Of a DNA stretch of 64,000 nt, positions 40,542 through 50,037 are shown piece by piece. The DNA is from an uncultured Paracoccaceae bacterium (GTDB lineage Bacteria; Pseudomonadota; Alphaproteobacteria; Rhodobacterales; Rhodobacteraceae). The DNA lies in contig CAJWNQ010000001.1 in the NCBI GenBank assembly GCA_913043905.1, positions 115,319 through 179,318 on the forward strand, given 5' to 3'. Position numbers and translations under genes: made by a program. The notes under the pieces are model-generated. The model was not told where the DNA came from and made no database searches. It was given only the letters and a program-made list of their open reading frames with translations. The stretch's first letter is position 1. Every line of letters begins with the position of its first letter.

Positions 40542-41702
40542 CTATATTGGTTGTGAACCCTCAACTAACCGAACAAAATAGCTTGCACCAATTGGGCTAA
40601 TTTCATCATTAAAGTCAAAAGACTGATTATGCAATTTAGCGCTATCCCCATTTCCAATATATAAATATGCTCCCTTGCAACGCTCTAAAATGAATGCGAA
40701 ATCTTCTGCTCCCATACTTGGCGTTGCATCAATGCTAACATTTTCATCACCAACCAATTCACCAGCAATACTGGCAGCAAATTTTACATTTTCACCATGG
40801 TTTATTGTTGGGGGATACCCATCAATAAATCGAATTTCAGCAGTAGCACCAAAAGCTTTAGATGTATTGTCAACAATATCATTTAAACGTGCCAGCATCA
40901 TAGATCGTATATCAGGCTGAAATGCACGAACTGTACCAATTATTTCACCAGTATGAGCAATTACATTATTTGCGCTACCAACATTCAACTGCGTCACAGA
41001 TAGTACACCACTCATCAATGGATCAACATTTCTGCTAACTATTGATTGTAAGGCTTGCACAATGTTTACTATCACTATTACAGGATCAATTGTATGATCT
41101 GGATGTGCAGCATGCCCACCTCGCCCAGTTACAGTAATTTCAAAATCATCAACAGATGCTAGAAGTGGGCCAGCAGTTGTTTCAAATTTTCCCACATCTA
41201 ATCCTGGTAAATTATGAAGAGCATAAACATTATCAATATCAAACTTTTCAATTAATCCCTCAGAAACCATTACTCCAGCGCCTCCACCTGCCTCTTCAGC
41301 AGGTTGGAAAATTAATACTACACGGCCTGAAAAATTACGTGTTTCACAAAGATACTTTGCTGCTCCCAACAACATTGTAGTGTGCCCATCATGACCACAG
41401 GCGTGCATTGCTCCTTCATTATGAGAAGCGTAATCGAGCCCAGTTTGCTCATACATTGGCAAAGCATCCATATCAGCTCGCAATCCAATTGTACCCCCGT
41501 CCCCTTTACCATTAATTACAGCAATAATGCCTGTTTTAGCCCATCCTGTTTGTATTTCATCCACACCAAATTCACTAAGTAATTTTTTGACATACTTTGC
41601 AGTTTTATGACACTCAAAGCCTGTTTCAGGTTGACTGTGTAAATAATGTCGCCAAGTTTTCATTTCTTCAAAATAATCAGCTATACGGTTGATAACGGCC
41701 AT
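40542..41702 (-). CDS. M20 family amidohydrolase (hippurate hydrolase-like)
   Basis: WRHYLHSQPETGFE, GLRADMDALPMYEQTGLDYAS, MHACGHDGHTTMLLGAAKYL, MGAEDFAFIL. Confidence 0.93.
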   Translation of the reverse strand: MAVINRIADYFEEMKTWRHYLHSQPETGFECHKTAKYVKKLLSEFGVDEIQTGWAKTGIIAVINGKGDGGTIGLRADMDALPMYEQTGLDYASHNEGAMHACGHDGHTTMLLGAAKYLCETRNFSGRVVLIFQPAEEAGGGAGVMVSEGLIEKFDIDNVYALHNLPGLDVGKFETTAGPLLASVDDFEITVTGRGGHAAHPDHTIDPVIVIVNIVQALQSIVSRNVDPLMSGVLSVTQLNVGSANNVIAHTGEIIGTVRAFQPDIRSMMLARLNDIVDNTSKAFGATAEIRFIDGYPPTINHGENVKFAASIAGELVGDENVSIDATPSMGAEDFAFILERCKGAYLYIGNGDSAKLHNQSFDFNDEISPIGASYFVRLVEGSQPI

Positions 41703-41740
41703 GGCTTTGCTATTCTCCTATTTTTTAACAGATAATCAGA

Positions 41741-42598
41741 TTGATGAAGATGACAAAAGCACAAAATGATAGTCAGAATATATGCCATGACCCTAACGGT
41801 GGTGTTCCACGACTTCTAGAAATTATGGCTAGACTGAGAAATCCAAAAACTGGATGCCCTTGGGATATTGAGCAAACCTATAAATCTATAGCATCTTATA
41901 CAATAGAAGAAGCCTATGAAGTTGCTGATGCCATTGATCAATCTAATTGGGAGGAGCTTGAAGGTGAGTTAGGGGATTTATTGTTACAAGTCATTTATTA
42001 TACACAAATGGGCTCAGAAGATGGATATTTTACTTTCGAAAGCGTAGTAAAAAATATTTCAGATAAAATGATACGCAGACATCCACATGTTTTTAATGAA
42101 GCAGATCAACACAAAACAACAAAGCAACAAATATCAGACTGGGAGAAAATCAAAGAAAGTGAACGATCAGATAAACATAATGGACCAACCAAAACATTAG
42201 GTGGAATAGCCAAAAATCTACCAGCGTTAACTCGTGCAGTAAAACTTCAAAATCGCGCAGCACGAGTGGGTTTTGACTGGCCAGACATCTCAGGTGTTAC
42301 AGATAAGATTACAGAAGAAATTGCAGAATTAACCGAAGCTCGTGAAATTTTATCATATGATAATCAAGTTGAAGAATACGGCGATTTACTGTTTGTAATG
42401 ACAAATTTTGCTCGCCACTTAAAAATTGATCCTGAAGAAGCATTACGGGCAGCTAATGAAAAATTTAGTCGCCGTTTTGAAAGCGTAGAACAAAAACTTG
42501 CCGCTATTGGAAAAAGCCCAATTCAATCTAATTTAGATGAAATGAATAATCTTTGGAATATCGTTAAAAAATTAGAAAAAGAAAAAACTATCTTATAA
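41741..42598 (+). CDS. mazG: Nucleoside triphosphate pyrophosphohydrolase MazG
   Basis: LRNPKTGCPWDIEQTYKSIASYTIEEAYEVADAI, ELGDLLLQVIYYTQM, RRHPHVF. Confidence 0.95.
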   Translation: MMKMTKAQNDSQNICHDPNGGVPRLLEIMARLRNPKTGCPWDIEQTYKSIASYTIEEAYEVADAIDQSNWEELEGELGDLLLQVIYYTQMGSEDGYFTFESVVKNISDKMIRRHPHVFNEADQHKTTKQQISDWEKIKESERSDKHNGPTKTLGGIAKNLPALTRAVKLQNRAARVGFDWPDISGVTDKITEEIAELTEAREILSYDNQVEEYGDLLFVMTNFARHLKIDPEEALRAANEKFSRRFESVEQKLAAIGKSPIQSNLDEMNNLWNIVKKLEKEKTIL

Positions 42599-42630
42599 AA
42601 GATACTAGTATCTATATATTGATTTATACT

Positions 42631-42645
42631 TGATTGTTTTTATCG
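42631..42645. promoter_or_regulatory. IRO-like box TGA-N9-TCG upstream of the Fe3+-binding protein gene
   Basis: ATACTTGATTGTTTTTATCGGGTAT about 62 bp before ATG 42708. Confidence 0.6.
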
Positions 42646-42707
42646 GGTATTGAGTTAATAAAGTTTATTTGGTAAGTTTTATAATAGATTCACAACTGGA
42701 GCTTATT

Positions 42708-43721
42708 ATGAAATTTCGCACATTAATTACAACCGCAGCTGCAATTACGACCATAAGTAGTACCGCTGTACAAGCAGACGAAATAAACGTTTATTCATAT
42801 CGTCAACCAGAACTAATTAAACCATTATTTGATGCGTTTACCAAAGAAACTGGAATTAATATCAATATAGCATTTTTAAAAAAAGGTCTTGTTGAAAAGT
42901 TAGTTGCAGAAGGAAACCGAAGCCCAGCTGATCTAGTTGTAACTGTAGATATTTCTCGCCTTACTGCAGTCGTTAATGCTGGGGTGACGCAGCCTGTAGT
43001 TTCTGAAATAATAAATAAAAATATTCCAGGTGAGTTTCGTGACCCATCAGGGCATTGGTTTGGGTTAACTTCACGAGCACGAATTATTTACGCATCAAAA
43101 GAACGTGTTCCTGATGGTGAAGTTACAACATATGAAGATCTTGTTTCTACTAAATGGAAGGGTCGTCTATGCACACGAGCAGGTACAAATGCATATAATC
43201 TAGCGCTCACATCTTCGATGATAGCCCATCATGGTGAAGATGAAACAAAGAAATGGCTGCGAGGTCTGAAAAAGAACTTAGCACGCAAGCCATCTGGTAA
43301 CGATCGAGCACAAGTCAAAGCTATATGGGCTGGAGAATGCGACATCTCTATCGGAAATACGTATTATATGAAAAAATTATTATCTAAAAAAGAGTCACGA
43401 GCGTGGGCTGAAAGTGTTCGCATTATATTTCCAAAATTTGAAAATGGCGGAACACATGTAAACCTATCCGGTGTAGCACTTACAAAAGCTGCCCCAAATA
43501 AAGAAAATGCAATCAAATTAATGGAATGGTTAACAAATGAAACTGCACAAGAAATATACGCTGAAAAGAATGGGGAATACCCATTAAGGCCAGGCTCAAA
43601 TCCATCTAAACTTGTATCTAGCTGGGGTAAGCTTGTACCGGATAGTATACCACTTATACAGATAGCAAAACTTCGGCCAAAATCATTAAAAATTACGGAA
43701 GAAGTTGGTTTTGATCAGTAA
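42708..43721 (+). CDS. Fe(3+) ABC transporter substrate-binding protein (FbpA/FutA type)
   Basis: Signal peptide; INVYSYRQPELIKPLFDAFTKETGININIAFLKKGLVEKL, GVALTKAAPNKENAIKLMEWL; ATG at 42708 preferred. Confidence 0.92.
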   Translation: MKFRTLITTAAAITTISSTAVQADEINVYSYRQPELIKPLFDAFTKETGININIAFLKKGLVEKLVAEGNRSPADLVVTVDISRLTAVVNAGVTQPVVSEIINKNIPGEFRDPSGHWFGLTSRARIIYASKERVPDGEVTTYEDLVSTKWKGRLCTRAGTNAYNLALTSSMIAHHGEDETKKWLRGLKKNLARKPSGNDRAQVKAIWAGECDISIGNTYYMKKLLSKKESRAWAESVRIIFPKFENGGTHVNLSGVALTKAAPNKENAIKLMEWLTNETAQEIYAEKNGEYPLRPGSNPSKLVSSWGKLVPDSIPLIQIAKLRPKSLKITEEVGFDQ

Positions 43722-43723
43722 AT

Positions 43724-43760
43724 AAATTAGCCCTTAAACTGTAAGTTTAAGGGCTAATTT
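43724..43760 (+). terminator. Intrinsic terminator between convergent genes
   Basis: AAATTAGCCCTTAAACT-GTA-AGTTTAAGGGCTAATTT. Confidence 0.8.
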
Positions 43761-43826
43761 AACAGTTTAATTTTTAAAAAATTATAAGCTAACTAATTTC
43801 AAATAATCAATACGTATTCAGTATTC

Positions 43827-44810
43827 TTAATTGCCAAAAACCCAATTAGTTAGCTTTCTGGCTCTTCCAAATTGTTTAGTTATAATTTTTGCTATATCTT
43901 TAAATGGTCGAGTATATATATCAACTAAATTTGTTGAACTTGCTTCATGCTGCATTAATCCAAATTTTAATTTCTTGTTTTCTTCAGACAAATGTAACGA
44001 TCCAAACATCCAGTCCCATACGGCAAGCGCAGCACCATAATTCTTATCATAATGTTCTTCTGCAATTGAGTGGTGCAACTGATGTTGCGCTGGTGAAATT
44101 AAAAAGCGTTCCAACCATGGCCAGTAACTGATGGTTATATGCGAGTGCCTTAGGTTTGAACCAGTAATGTGAAATATAAATACTAATACATTTACACCAA
44201 CAATTGTATAAAGATCCACTAAGTTTCCAAACAGAAAAACAAAAAGTGAAATTGCAATACCTTGAGAAATAGCACCCCTAAAAGAATAAAGAATACCTTC
44301 TAAAGGGTGCACTCGATAAACAGTAAGTGGTGTAAGCGTTTCTGCTGAGTGATGCACTTTGTGTATTGCCCACAAAAAATGAAACTGATGCATCCATCGG
44401 TGCATTAAATACTTTGTTAAGTCATCAATTATAAACATAAATACTGTAAACAAAAAAACAACAGTGCCAATTTTGGTATCATTAAAGTAACCTGATTGGA
44501 TAAAATCTTGTCGATGCAGCAAAAAATAAATAGCTGTTGCTATAGCAATTTGTGTAACTAACAATGGCGAAATAAATAATGAAAAAATTCGATTTATAAT
44601 GAATATCTTGTAATCTGCTCTGGCAGATTTTGAAAAAAATACTTTTGGGTCAAATACTTTTGATAAAGCTATTGAAATAGTTGTTTTCTTGAAAAGTATT
44701 AACCAAAGGAAGGCTATAAATAGTGAAAGAAAGAGGTAACCTACAAAAATACGTTTTCTAGGGTCTGTAAAATCAGCTAAAAGCGATATTATCTGATAGA
44801 AATTATCCAT
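43827..44810 (-). CDS. Sterol desaturase/fatty acid hydroxylase family membrane protein
   Basis: DLTKYLMHRWMHQFHFLWAIHKVHHSAETLTPLTVYRVHPLE, SPAQHQLHHS histidine boxes. Confidence 0.92.
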   Translation of the reverse strand: MDNFYQIISLLADFTDPRKRIFVGYLFLSLFIAFLWLILFKKTTISIALSKVFDPKVFFSKSARADYKIFIINRIFSLFISPLLVTQIAIATAIYFLLHRQDFIQSGYFNDTKIGTVVFLFTVFMFIIDDLTKYLMHRWMHQFHFLWAIHKVHHSAETLTPLTVYRVHPLEGILYSFRGAISQGIAISLFVFLFGNLVDLYTIVGVNVLVFIFHITGSNLRHSHITISYWPWLERFLISPAQHQLHHSIAEEHYDKNYGAALAVWDWMFGSLHLSEENKKLKFGLMQHEASSTNLVDIYTRPFKDIAKIITKQFGRARKLTNWVFGN

Positions 44811-44864
44811 AAATTACCTCAAGTTTAAAGTATTGGGCAGCGCAACTGCGCCACCCAATCATGT

Positions 44865-46280
44865 TTAATCAGTCTCAGCACTTGAAGCGTCGCCTAATTT
44901 ACCAGCAAGAGCTGCAATATCACCTAATTTATTATTAACCAATGCTTTAATGCCAAATTTATCAACCATTAACTTTTGCACCTTTAACAAATTAAGTTGG
45001 TAGTCACTCCAAGTCATACGTTTTTCACGCTTGAAATCACCGTTCGATGTAACACTAGTTACATAAGAGTTATCTAAAGTTACTGGTCCAAATAGAATTA
45101 AATCATTCATTGTGCCAGCTGTTTCCCCTAAATTATTACGGCCACTTTGTAGCGCCATAGAGAAGCCTTTCAGTTCACCCCAATGCTTAACATAAGCATT
45201 GTATGCTTTAGCCTGATCGGCACCATCTTCTTGCACCTTGCTTATGTCTTTGTAAGCTGAACCAGCATATTTAAAAACAGCTTCAGCTAGAACTTGCTCC
45301 CAGTTAGACTCAATAACAGACGCATAATTTTTTATTTCCTGGCGCTGCCCATCTGTAAGAATAGCACCGTCTGCTGATGTAATCACCATACGACCATCTA
45401 CATAAGCCTTCATTATATTATTTAAATAATTTGTGCTTTTACTTCCAGATCGATCAAACGCAGCAGCATAATATGCAGGCCCAAAAACCATCTCTGACTT
45501 TAGGTCAACTAAACCATCGCCATTAGCGTCTGCTGATGCCATGTCTTTGCGTTTAGCAATCCCGTAAGCCTGGTCAGCAGTTAAAGATAATGTGTGTGCA
45601 GCTGCACCAAAATATCCAAAACCTTCATCCCAGACATGCTCTTTTCCAGTATAATGCTTGCCATCTTTGTAAGGCTTATTGTTAGGCTTCGTACCAGCGT
45701 CTAGCTTCTCATCCAAATAGTTATCAACAGCTTGGCTGTAAGCCATAGCACCCATTGTGAACTTTGAGATTAATTGAGGCCAATTATATCCATTTTCAGC
45801 ATCAACGCCTTTATTTGCTGTAGACGCACGATCAATCATATGCAAAGCAACTTCACGGCCCTTCATTGATCCTGGCCAAGCTAGCATAGGACCATTGTAA
45901 AACTTGCCTTCTATATTTTTTCCAGAAGAAATCTCGTTTAGCGTTCCTTGCTTAATAATGAATTCATCTTTACTACCCGGCGCTAAAATAGCTTTGTTTT
46001 TTTCAGAGCCTGAAAAGTATGATAACATCTCTGCCTTGAGCGCTGAAGAGTTAGCCCCACCATCACCACGGCCGGCTAGGACCTTGAGGCTGTCATGCAG
46101 AACATGACGAGCAATTTGTCCAGAATAAGATACAGAATTAGTTGCATCGCCTGTGTAACCTTTTACAGTTACTGGAAATGGCCCATAGTTCATGGCTGAG
46201 TGACCATCTGCTGCAGCGATAGAACCCATCATTGTTACGGCTATAGCAAATGTCGTATATTTTAGTTTTGTTTTAAGCAT
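44865..46280 (-). CDS. Imelysin/DUF4856-like secreted iron-associated protein
   Basis: Signal peptide; YTGDATNSVSYSGQIARHVLHDSLKVLA; EHVWDEGFGYFGAAAHTLS; DANGDGLVDL Ca-loop-like insert. Confidence 0.7.
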   Translation of the reverse strand: MLKTKLKYTTFAIAVTMMGSIAAADGHSAMNYGPFPVTVKGYTGDATNSVSYSGQIARHVLHDSLKVLAGRGDGGANSSALKAEMLSYFSGSEKNKAILAPGSKDEFIIKQGTLNEISSGKNIEGKFYNGPMLAWPGSMKGREVALHMIDRASTANKGVDAENGYNWPQLISKFTMGAMAYSQAVDNYLDEKLDAGTKPNNKPYKDGKHYTGKEHVWDEGFGYFGAAAHTLSLTADQAYGIAKRKDMASADANGDGLVDLKSEMVFGPAYYAAAFDRSGSKSTNYLNNIMKAYVDGRMVITSADGAILTDGQRQEIKNYASVIESNWEQVLAEAVFKYAGSAYKDISKVQEDGADQAKAYNAYVKHWGELKGFSMALQSGRNNLGETAGTMNDLILFGPVTLDNSYVTSVTSNGDFKREKRMTWSDYQLNLLKVQKLMVDKFGIKALVNNKLGDIAALAGKLGDASSAETD

Positions 46281-46323
46281 TTTAGCTTCTCCAAATATCT
46301 AAGTCTTTGATTGGATATATACC

Positions 46324-46362
46324 CGAGTATTTTGATCGGAATATACCTGAGTGTTTTAATCA
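46324..46362. promoter_or_regulatory. Two tandem IRO-like boxes (CGA-N9-TCG and TGA-N9-TCA) upstream of the imelysin-like gene
   Basis: ATACCCGAGTATTTTGATCGGAATATACCTGAGTGTTTTAATCAACAT; boxes 24 bp apart, about 45-80 bp from the start codon at 46280. Confidence 0.65.
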
Positions 46363-46593
46363 ACATTATTACAGGAGAGTCAATAGCTTTATCATTATAA
46401 AATAAATTTATTATTTAATGTATTTTGACATAAATATTTTAATGAATAATAAAATAAATAGTTCTATTTATTCTATACAAATTTAATATATGAATTGTCT
46501 AGTATTTAGAGAAATTATGGTGCCCAATTCAAATAACCAAATCTTAGAATAAATATTTCAATAAAAATTATTTTTTAGATGCTATGAATACGT

Positions 46594-47130
46594 TTAGTGC
46601 ATTCGCTTTATATTAATATTATCATAAAAAGGCATTTTAATTTTATGAGTATGATACTCTTCAATAATAGTTGCTAATTTATTCATTGCATCAAGAAATT
46701 TATTTTCAGCCATTCCTTCGCATAATATAATAGCATTTTCCTTGGCTCCAAATTTATTTAACTTTCGAATAAAATATAGTGTTTCAATAAAGCAGTGTTC
46801 ATGAAGAGTAATATATTTTATGCACGTTTCACATTTTGGATCGTGATAATTAAGCCCTGCCCCCCTTGTCCCACAAAGTATATTTAATGCAATTTGCACA
46901 GCATTTGCGATTGTAGCGCCGTAGGGAGTATTGAAATTTTTTTCAGAAGTTTTATATGCACTTATCCAAGCATGAGTTTCAGGATGATGAAAAGCTAAAA
47001 AAAAGAACCTAGTTATCTGGAGTATTTGGCGTTCACATTCATCAAATGAAGTTTTATCTATATGTATGCAATTATCATTTATTTTATGTTGATGCATTAA
47101 TCTAATTGCAGGGTTGGATGGTGACGACAT
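46594..47130 (-). CDS. Hypothetical protein with CxxC and several His/Cys residues
   Basis: 178-aa ORF, codon use consistent with neighbours; YHDPKCETCIKYITLHEHCFIETLYF; no family recognised. Confidence 0.6.
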   Translation of the reverse strand: MSSPSNPAIRLMHQHKINDNCIHIDKTSFDECERQILQITRFFFLAFHHPETHAWISAYKTSEKNFNTPYGATIANAVQIALNILCGTRGAGLNYHDPKCETCIKYITLHEHCFIETLYFIRKLNKFGAKENAIILCEGMAENKFLDAMNKLATIIEEYHTHKIKMPFYDNINIKRMH

Positions 47131-47228
47131 TACAAACCTCGTTTGATGAATTTAAGACCAAATTATAAAAAGTAATATTAAATATTATTTATAAAACCAT
47201 TTATAATTTTAGTATTAATAATAATTCT

Positions 47229-47243
47229 TGACTATATTTGTCA
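47229..47243. promoter_or_regulatory. IRO-like palindrome CTTGAC-N7-GTCAAG
   Basis: TGA-CTATATTTG-TCA in the divergent region between the hypothetical gene and the YeiH gene. Confidence 0.4.
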
Positions 47244-47314
47244 AGTATTATCAATGTGTTTGTGTTCTCTCACAGAAAATTTCCATTATAATAATTAAGA
47301 AGGTCCACCAGCGC

Positions 47315-48325
47315 ATGATTACAACTTCAGTATATATTTCTAAAACTAAATTAATATTCCCAGGATTATTAATCTCAGTGCTAATAGCCTTAGCAGCTCA
47401 ATTTATTTCAGACCATTATGGCGCACCCTCGATGCTAATGGCACTTTTATTTGGTATGGCATTAAATTTTTTATCTTCTGATCAAAAATGCAGATTAGGG
47501 ATAAAGTTTTCGTCCCGCACATTACTTCGCTTTGGAATTGCTATGCTTGGGCTAAGGGTCAGTTTTGAAATGATAATAGATTTAGGCTGGCCTATTGTTT
47601 TCATTGTTATTAGTGGCGTGATATTAACAATTTTATTTGGACTTTTAATTGCAGGAATGTTTGGTTTTGGGCCACGTTTTGCATTTTTATCTGCCGGATC
47701 TGTAGCTATTTGTGGTGCATCAGCTGCTATGGCAATATCTGCAATATTACCGCAAGACGAACGATCCGAAGAACGCTTACTTTTTACAGTAGTTGGCGTT
47801 ACTATATTATCAACTTTTGCAATGATTATTTATCCAATTCTTTCTGATGCAATGAACTATAATGATAAGCTATCGGGAATTTTTATCGGTGCCACAATCC
47901 ATGATGTAGCACAAGTTGTAGGGGCTGGATTCTCTAAATCTGAAGAAGTTGGTGACATTGCAACAGTTGTAAAATTAATCCGCGTTGCGATGCTAGCACC
48001 AGTAATATTAATAGCAACAATTGCAATACGATGTATGAAAATAAAAGCTCAAAACAGCACTCAACATCTTCCAATTTTACCAAGCTTTGTTGTCGCCTTC
48101 ATTTTTTTTGCGATCGTAAACTCTTTTGGATTAGTTCCAACTATTTTTTCTACGACTGCTGCAGAAATTTCAAGATGGGCTCTACTTTCAGCAATTGCGG
48201 CTGTTGGAATGAAAACTGCATTAAAAGAAGTGATTAATGTTGGGCTCCCAGCTATTTTATTATTGATATTAGAAACTATATTCATAGCTTTATTTATAAT
48301 AGTTGCTTTACGTTGGCTAGAATAA
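47315..48325 (+). CDS. YeiH/UPF0324 family putative sulfate exporter
   Basis: PGLLISVLIALAAQFISDHYGAPSMLMALLFGMALNFL, GSVAICGASAAMAISAILP, GIFIGATIHDVAQVVGAG; ATG 47315 preferred. Confidence 0.9.
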   Translation: MITTSVYISKTKLIFPGLLISVLIALAAQFISDHYGAPSMLMALLFGMALNFLSSDQKCRLGIKFSSRTLLRFGIAMLGLRVSFEMIIDLGWPIVFIVISGVILTILFGLLIAGMFGFGPRFAFLSAGSVAICGASAAMAISAILPQDERSEERLLFTVVGVTILSTFAMIIYPILSDAMNYNDKLSGIFIGATIHDVAQVVGAGFSKSEEVGDIATVVKLIRVAMLAPVILIATIAIRCMKIKAQNSTQHLPILPSFVVAFIFFAIVNSFGLVPTIFSTTAAEISRWALLSAIAAVGMKTALKEVINVGLPAILLLILETIFIALFIIVALRWLE

Positions 48326-48424
48326 TAACAAAATTCTCATTTTTTAGACCTCATAAATTATAATCTTGTAATTAAAATTGTAAAATAGGTTACAGATACT
48401 ACCATGAGAATTATTTAAATTTTT

Positions 48425-48449
48425 ATACCTGATTGTTTTACTCAGGTAT
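48425..48449. promoter_or_regulatory. IRO-like box ATACCTGATTGTTTTACTCAGGTAT overlapping a TTGACA -35
   Basis: TGA-N9-TCA palindrome; TTGACA at 48449-48454. Confidence 0.65.
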
Positions 48450-48479
48450 TGACATGCTTATTCAAATAGTATGTAAGAG

Positions 48480-48592
48480 AGATAATTAACAATATAATAT
48501 ATGTTTAATAAAGTTATCTGAATTATCATGAATATAAAATTTTAGTTATTTAAATAAACACCCAAGTAGTCCCCCTACTTGGGTGTTTTTTT
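48480..48592 (+). ncRNA. Candidate iron-regulated sRNA (transcript start estimated)
   Basis: IRO-like box plus -35 upstream, no plausible ORF, perfect 13-bp intrinsic terminator at the end. Confidence 0.5.
48557..48592 (+). terminator. Intrinsic terminator
   Basis: AACACCCAAGTAG-TCCCC-CTACTTGGGTGTT then TTTTTATTTT. Confidence 0.9.
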
Positions 48593-48706
48593 ATTTTAAT
48601 ATAAACTGCCTTTTGCCTTCTATATTTTTATGCTATTTCTAGATGTAGATTAATGTATTAAAATTGCAGCTCTTAAACTTATTCTGAATATAAAAATGGA
48701 TTTTTA

Positions 48707-49117
48707 ATGAATACAATTATTGAACGATGTGAATCATCTGGCTTAAGGATGACTGAGCAACGCCGAGTTATTGCCAGAGTATTAGACGCGTCTAAAGACC
48801 ACCCAGATGTTGATATAATTTATTCCAGAGTGTCTAAAATTGATAATTCGATTTCTATTGCTACAGTTTACCGAACAGTAAAACAATTTGAAGAAGCAGG
48901 AATATTAGAACGTGTTGATTTTGGAGATGGGCGCGCACGTTACGAAGATGCTAAGAGAGAACATCATGATCATTTAATTGATATACAATCTGGAAATGTA
49001 ATAGAATTTGTAGATCCTGAAATTGAAGAACTACAAGAGCGTATTGCTGAAAAATTGGGATATGAACTACGTGGTCACCGGTTAGAATTATATGGCGTAC
49101 CTAAGAAACCTGAATAA
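48707..49117 (+). CDS. irr: Fur family transcriptional regulator, Irr-like
   Basis: CESSGLRMTEQRRVIARVLDASKDHPDVDIIY, SIATVYRTVKQFEEAGILERVDFGDGRARYE, HHDHLIDIQSGNVIEF; no C-terminal Cys metal motifs. Confidence 0.8.
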   Translation: MNTIIERCESSGLRMTEQRRVIARVLDASKDHPDVDIIYSRVSKIDNSISIATVYRTVKQFEEAGILERVDFGDGRARYEDAKREHHDHLIDIQSGNVIEFVDPEIEELQERIAEKLGYELRGHRLELYGVPKKPE

Positions 49118-49119
49118 AG

Positions 49120-50037
49120 ATGTTTTTAATAATCATGGTAGCATTAGCGCCTAGTTTTTGTTTGGTAGCTTTGGGTGGCTTAATCCGAAACCGTTTATCT
49201 GAAAATGCTTGGCTAGGCTTGGATAAGCTGAACTTTGACATACTTTTCCCTGCGTTATTATTTTCTTCTATTGCAAGTCGCCCCATACCCTTGCCACAGA
49301 TATTTACTTTAGCCATATCAGTTTGTTCATTATTATTTATTGCAATGATCCTTGCTTATTTATTAAAACCTTTGGGCCCAGATCGATTTATTGATTTTGC
49401 TGGACTTTGGCAGTGCTCTTGGCGGTTTAATACTGCTGTCGGTTTACTTGCCACAACATCACTGATGCCTGCTGCAAATGCATTAATGCCAGTAGTACTG
49501 GGAATAGCGGTGCCAATATCTAATGTTTTAGCAATAAGTGCACTATCAAGTAGTAGTAATAATACTAACTTTTGGAAAACTATTATTGCAGTTCTGGTAA
49601 ATCCATTTTTTTTAGCAAGCTTTTCCGGTGTCTTAGTTGGCATTAGTGGTGTTACAATCCCAACCCCAATAATGATGCCAATAAAACTCCTTGGCAACGC
49701 AGCAATTCCTATAGCCCTATTATCAATAGGCGCCTCAATGGATTGGACTGCATTAATGAAGATTAATCGCTTCACTGCATTTATGAATTTCATTAAATTA
49801 ATAGCCATGCCCATGATTGCGTTAATCTTAGGGTTTTTATTTGAGTTAACTATTCCACAATTAACTGTTTTAATTGTTTTCGCAGCTTTACCTACAGCAT
49901 CTGCAGGCCATGTACTCGCTGCTAAGTTTGGTGCAGCCCGCAGACCAGTGGCAACCTTAATAGCCCAGTCTACGTTGTTGAGCGCACTAACCCTACCAAT
50001 GTGGATTTATGTAGCAACAATTATTGAAACAGGATAG
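49120..50037 (+). CDS. AEC family transporter (auxin efflux carrier-like permease)
   Basis: Polytopic; GNAAIPIALLSIGASMD, LPTASAGHVLAAKFGA. Confidence 0.88.
   Translation: MFLIIMVALAPSFCLVALGGLIRNRLSENAWLGLDKLNFDILFPALLFSSIASRPIPLPQIFTLAISVCSLLFIAMILAYLLKPLGPDRFIDFAGLWQCSWRFNTAVGLLATTSLMPAANALMPVVLGIAVPISNVLAISALSSSSNNTNFWKTIIAVLVNPFFLASFSGVLVGISGVTIPTPIMMPIKLLGNAAIPIALLSIGASMDWTALMKINRFTAFMNFIKLIAMPMIALILGFLFELTIPQLTVLIVFAALPTASAGHVLAAKFGAARRPVATLIAQSTLLSALTLPMWIYVATIIETG

Follow-up and report, generated by a model that had tools for sequence, protein, structure and literature searches.

An orphan IscR-type promoter fused to an fbpA terminator upstream of a fur/mur-type gene: a probable deletion scar in an uncultured Paracoccaceae bacterium

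Genes for small RNAs (sRNAs) are said to arise via genome rearrangement, a promoter becoming joined to a terminator, as reportedly described by Raghavan et al. 2015. The locus presented here resembles such rearrangement-born genes in that a deletion would have joined an existing promoter and an existing terminator into an sRNA-like unit. It differs from them in that its promoter is predicted to be iron-regulated, the event would have followed replacement by a foreign gene copy, and the transcript is a prediction. RyhB, PrrF, NrrF and FsrA have in common with the unit their short length, an intrinsic terminator and induction in iron shortage (predicted here), whereas the unit has IscR and not Fur as its predicted regulator and lacks a family match, structure and conservation. 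Another alphaproteobacterial sRNA, RusT of Caulobacter crescentus, is induced by iron starvation, controlled by NtrYX and bound to Hfq (PMC11005374); the same induction is predicted for our unit, but NtrYX control and Hfq binding are features of RusT, with no sequence relation shown between the two. As for regulation, IscR of R. sphaeroides binds Iron-Rhodo-boxes and represses the genes carrying them, and these boxes overlap promoters or stand near them, that of afuA lying near its promoter (PMC4618611). The afuA and hemP-irpA promoters of this IscR regulon (PMC4618611) carry a palindromic TGA-N9-TCA, as does the promoter studied here, the kinds of target are alike (a ferric-iron binding protein and the imelysin irpA), and both organisms have a Rhodobacteraceae-type IscR as their sole Rrf2 protein; unlike in R. 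sphaeroides, no coding gene stands behind the promoter at 48449-48477.

The unit lies in a stretch of 64,000 nucleotides, hereafter the window, whose relevant features are collected in Table 1. A sequence-only reading of this DNA had pointed to a palindrome overlapping TTGACA, followed by a perfect terminator with no credible ORF in between, and our analysis bears out all three elements. The palindrome has perfect 8-bp arms, ATACCTGA (48425-48432) and TCAGGTAT (48442-48449), separated by the 9-nt spacer TTGTTTTAC (48433-48441). Perfect palindromes of such size are not rare in AT-rich DNA on size alone; the exact ACCTGA-N9-TCAGGT occurs a single time in the 2.02-Mb genome, at this position. The -10 hexamer is weak, and a promoter scan requiring at least 9 of 12 consensus matches gave no promoter with this TTGACA; transcription is predicted to start near 48484. 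The terminator stem, AACACCCAAGTAG/TCCCC/CTACTTGGGTGTT at 48557-48587, reaches 14 pairs with the flanking A-T (48556-48588), is followed by a T-rich tail, and ranks as the strongest terminator-like site within 41500-49200. No ORF of at least 50 aa was listed across 48425-48592, where only two micro-ORFs, encoding MFNKVI (48501-48521) and MNIKF (48528-48545), are found, and the predicted RNA has no recognisable Shine-Dalgarno sequence. Operator, TTGACA, terminator and the absence of an ORF support the prediction of a discrete, repressor-controlled and probably non-coding unit that stops 5′ of the next gene.

Table 1. Features of the locus, in positions of the window.
Feature	Position	Strand	Remarks
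mazG	41741..42598	+	stands to the left of fbpA in close relatives
Operator of the foreign fbpA	42626..42650	+	ATACTTGATTGTTTTTATCGGGTAT
Foreign fbpA (ferric-iron ABC binding protein)	42708..43721	+	82% identical to G018, 70% to G002
Fatty-acid hydroxylase (43827-44810) and DUF4856 (44865-46280)	43827..46280	-	order as next to fbpA in G018
Operator	48425..48449	+	perfect palindrome ATACCTGA-N9-TCAGGTAT with TGA-N9-TCA core; predicted IscR site, Iron-Rhodo-box-like
Promoter, predicted	48449..48477	+	TTGACA 48449-48454, 17-nt spacer, weak -10 TGTAAG 48472-48477
Putative remnant of fbpA 5′ UTR and start codon	48484..48526	+	ATG 48501-48503 aligns with the fbpA start
Putative remnant of fbpA last codons and 3′ UTR	48527..48556	+	CATGAATAT 48527-48535 aligns with GACGAATAG of G002
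Intrinsic terminator	48556..48594	+	identical to the fbpA terminator of G002, 31/31 bases
fur/mur-type regulator	48707..49117	+	Pfam FUR; NCBIfam Fur models score above Irr models

The same reading had called the palindrome IRO-like; the IRO-box is the site of RirA, and that assignment did not hold here. We found a single Rrf2 protein in the 92.65%-complete genome, encoded next to a cysteine desulfurase gene. It carries the CPAV motif described for IscR of R. sphaeroides and scored 145.5 bits with the IscR model, which is below the curated IscR cut-off, against 32.7 bits with the RirA model. This sole Rrf2 protein is a Rhodobacteraceae-type IscR; RirA was not found in the genome at this completeness and was rejected as the regulator. 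Since the only Rrf2 protein is IscR and RirA is absent, the palindrome at 48425-48449 is best read as an Iron-Rhodo-box, a predicted IscR site recognised by its pattern, a TGA-N9-TCA-type palindrome overlapping the -35.

Similar operators were sought genome-wide with the half-site pattern GATNNNTTTACTCRGGTAT, allowing up to two mismatches and using the reversed pattern as control. The pattern occurred at eight places against two for the control, and five of the eight lie in or upstream of an iron-type context: the operator at 48425-48449, the window fbpA, the DUF4856 gene, irpA and the gene of a 159-aa protein. The pattern was derived partly from the matched sites, irpA, an imelysin gene (PF09375), being the independent catch. 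The half-site TTTACTCRGGTATTGAC of the 48425-48449 operator is also present upstream of irpA and of the 159-aa protein gene, and the operator of the latter is conserved in G002 upstream of a 92%-identical orthologue. The 159-aa protein, which had no Pfam and no NCBIfam match and whose double IscR-type operator is conserved in two genomes (G000:C12:17117-17135, L041; G002:C1:122251, L190), is a candidate new iron-responsive protein family. A short ORF (MSFLEKFKCQRPPSQLKKLPQLN...) behind a double operator 5′ of irpA (G000:C14:28914-29176, L129) resembles the start of this protein, encoded on contig C12, and is perhaps a decayed copy of its gene. Within the window, tandem IscR-type half-palindromes on the minus strand (ATACCCGAGTATTTTGATCGG and ATACCTGAGTGTTTTAATCAA, 46319-46363) stand 5′ of the DUF4856 gene and suggest that it is iron-regulated, and a TGA-N9-TCA palindrome (CTTGACTATATTTGTCAAG, 47229-47243) in the divergent region between the gene of a 178-aa protein and yeiH may place yeiH under IscR control as well. 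In the close relatives that have fbpA next to fur, the fbpA promoters (G002, G031 and G027; L007, L008 and L010) have TGA-N9-TCA boxes in duplicate around TTGAC. These boxes are of the TGACT-N5-AGTCA type, the first preceding the -35 and the second lying within the -35/-10 spacer. Judged by sequence, they form an operator sub-type distinct from the one at irpA and at the 159-aa protein gene in the same lineage.

The gene downstream of the unit had been called irr. The NCBIfam Fur models outscore the Irr models on its protein, with none above cut-off, and one of the genome's three Fur-family proteins, encoded on contig C31 (C31:11049-11399), exceeds the two Irr cut-offs with 181.8 and 180.4 bits and is irr proper. 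The name irr is therefore a misnomer for 48707-49117 and was rejected for this fur/mur-type gene, whose start codon at 48707 lies about 115 bp 3′ of the terminator. The nearest genomes (G002, G031 and G027) have mazG, fbpA, terminator hairpin and fur in this sequence, and fbpA occupies the position that the unit has in the window. Fur of G002 is 95% identical to that of the window, and the stretch from the terminator to fur is orthologous to G002, with 81% identity including the start of fur. In the window the order is mazG, fbpA, hydroxylase, DUF4856, 178-aa protein, yeiH, the promoter-terminator unit and fur, and the fbpA present at 42708-43721, some 5 kb upstream of the unit and next to mazG, has its own operator and its own hairpin. 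The 178-aa protein (46594-47130) was considered as a homologue of the 159-aa C12 protein, for which BLASTP gave no support.

The fbpA that the window now carries is of foreign origin. In a maximum-likelihood tree its product pairs with that of G018 (100/93), outside the clade of G002, G031 and G027 (96/87; with G023 95/87), and the window Fur falls within the clade of these three genomes (100/99). In G018, fbpA, hydroxylase and DUF4856 have the order and orientation that they have in the window, at a locus distant from the mazG and fur of G018, and the two neighbours of fbpA are 75% and 66% identical between window and G018. Never more than one fbpA match was found in any of the genomes compared. 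Tree, synteny with G018 and the maximum of one fbpA per genome together argue that a cassette entered and the resident fbpA was lost, and the sequence comparisons mark the current copy as foreign. The cassette itself (42708-46280; fbpA on the plus strand, hydroxylase and DUF4856 on the minus strand; G018:C6, L165 9731-13228) looks mobile: its order recurs at separate loci in two distant genomes of the Amylibacter group, as in a xenologous replacement of fbpA.

Because close relatives have mazG-fbpA-terminator-fur, the terminator is identical to that of G002 and the current fbpA is foreign, we read 48425-48594 as the scar that a deletion of the resident fbpA probably left, with a promoter under predicted IscR control now placed directly before the fbpA terminator. 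The synteny, the base-identical terminator and the foreign origin of the window fbpA are direct observations. By this account, the cassette of foreign fbpA, hydroxylase and DUF4856 would have been inserted between mazG and the resident fbpA, with the 178-aa protein gene and yeiH as two further genes now beside it. A deletion reaching nearly from the start to the stop codon would then have removed the resident coding sequence and left its promoter and IscR operator fused to its terminator. With plentiful iron, Fe-S-loaded IscR would occupy the operator across the -35 and block transcription; in iron shortage the promoter would fire, about 110 nt would be transcribed, and transcription would stop at the terminator, which would also shield fur from the promoter at 48449-48477. 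The unit may thus give an iron-starvation RNA of about 110 nt, untranslated and under the old regulation of fbpA, and possibly an incipient sRNA.

Probable traces of the resident gene were seen at both ends of the unit. The distance from the stop position of G002 fbpA to its terminator is 21 nt, the same as in the window, and when the comparison is anchored at the terminator, 23 of the 40 nt upstream are identical to the end of G002 fbpA (null mean 14.1, p 0.0005). With the anchor set directly behind TATTGAC, the 60 nt that follow align with the fbpA promoters of G002 (z 3.7) and G031 (z 3.5), at p 0.0015 in both cases. None of 43 AT-rich real control segments reached the score obtained with either promoter, and the match extends to the fbpA start codon, which corresponds to the ATG of the MFNKVI micro-ORF. 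The same alignment was not significant with G027 fbpA (p 0.12). Eight candidates were tested in this comparison, and the alignment is gapped and in AT-rich DNA; because of the number of candidates, descent of the promoter half from the resident fbpA is only moderately supported. The deletion junction is placed in the interval from about 48504 to 48526. When the entire interior was aligned to fbpA with gaps and anchored ends, the result was not significant (p 0.53), and local alignment without an anchor, of the interior against pieces of fbpA, was uninformative in such AT-rich sequence, the signal coming only from the operator- or terminator-anchored tests.

A first alternative is that the unit is a functional, IscR-repressed and iron-responsive sRNA, comparable to RyhB, PrrF or RusT, that base-pairs with the mRNAs of iron proteins in iron shortage, perhaps after recruitment of an fbpA scar. 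It has the full anatomy of an sRNA gene (an operator, a TTGACA, an ORF-free interval and a strong terminator ending in a T-rich tail), its operator arms are perfect, and its terminator has stayed identical to that of G002 despite drift of the flanking DNA; that identity, however, also fits a young scar. The unit had no Rfam match at the gathering score, sub-threshold matches being at chance level. The interior of the unit (48484-48555) has less structure than its shuffled versions (z +1.84), so the structure of the whole unit (z -4.9) is due to the terminator. Conservation in relatives, proposed as a check for an sRNA, was not found: other genomes of the genus and class, searched at the DNA level for the complete unit, returned only the terminator region of G002 and short chance matches, and the scar was found in one genome only. 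The suggestion of a RyhB-type iron-sparing RNA is left without support, as there is no Rfam family, no structure beyond the terminator and no second occurrence among the genus genomes examined, and as each of its two halves probably goes back to the fbpA gene that is resident in close relatives. If transcribed, the unit would behave like a gene for an iron-regulated sRNA, but it shows none of the RyhB family-specific features that were tested, and we consider a functional sRNA unlikely. Since the joining of promoter and terminator is a known kind of event and these features are lacking, we class the locus as a probable rearrangement-made, sRNA-like unit.

A second alternative concerns the promoter half, which could come from another IscR-controlled gene that arrived with or beside the cassette and was then lost, the promoter coming to lie beside the old fbpA terminator through rearrangement. 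Its operator is of the type found at irpA, the 159-aa protein gene and the foreign fbpA, and it abuts TATTGAC as theirs do; the core TGATTGTTTTACTCA, directly 5′ of TATTGAC, is closer to the irpA and 159-aa operators than to the TGACT-N5-AGTCA boxes of the resident fbpA. As the core is unlike these boxes, the scar operator may have been altered or may have come from elsewhere. However, the 60-nt sequence behind the operator aligns with the resident fbpA promoters of G002 and G031 and not with those of the foreign fbpA (the window's own and that of G018), irpA or the 159-aa protein gene (p 0.46 to 0.86), and we hold such an origin of the promoter half improbable. That the unit serves as an upstream promoter or leader of fur is very improbable, and the sequence-only reading, too, had decided against a leader: the unit lies on the same strand about 115 bp 5′ of the start codon and some read-through is always possible, but a perfect terminator intervenes and the equivalent hairpin in relatives closes fbpA.

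The deletion scar that we favour carries a caution, namely that an intergenic promoter and terminator without an ORF may be what a lost gene has left behind, which gene order in relatives exposes quickly. Should the orphan IscR promoter and terminator have been retained as a functional sRNA gene that responds to iron and is switched by IscR in place of Fur, for which we see little likelihood, a marine alphaproteobacterium would have gained an sRNA from what was left of an iron-uptake gene. Promoter, operator and terminator can outlast the gene that was replaced and so provide a ready iron-regulated unit, a plausible first step towards a new sRNA.
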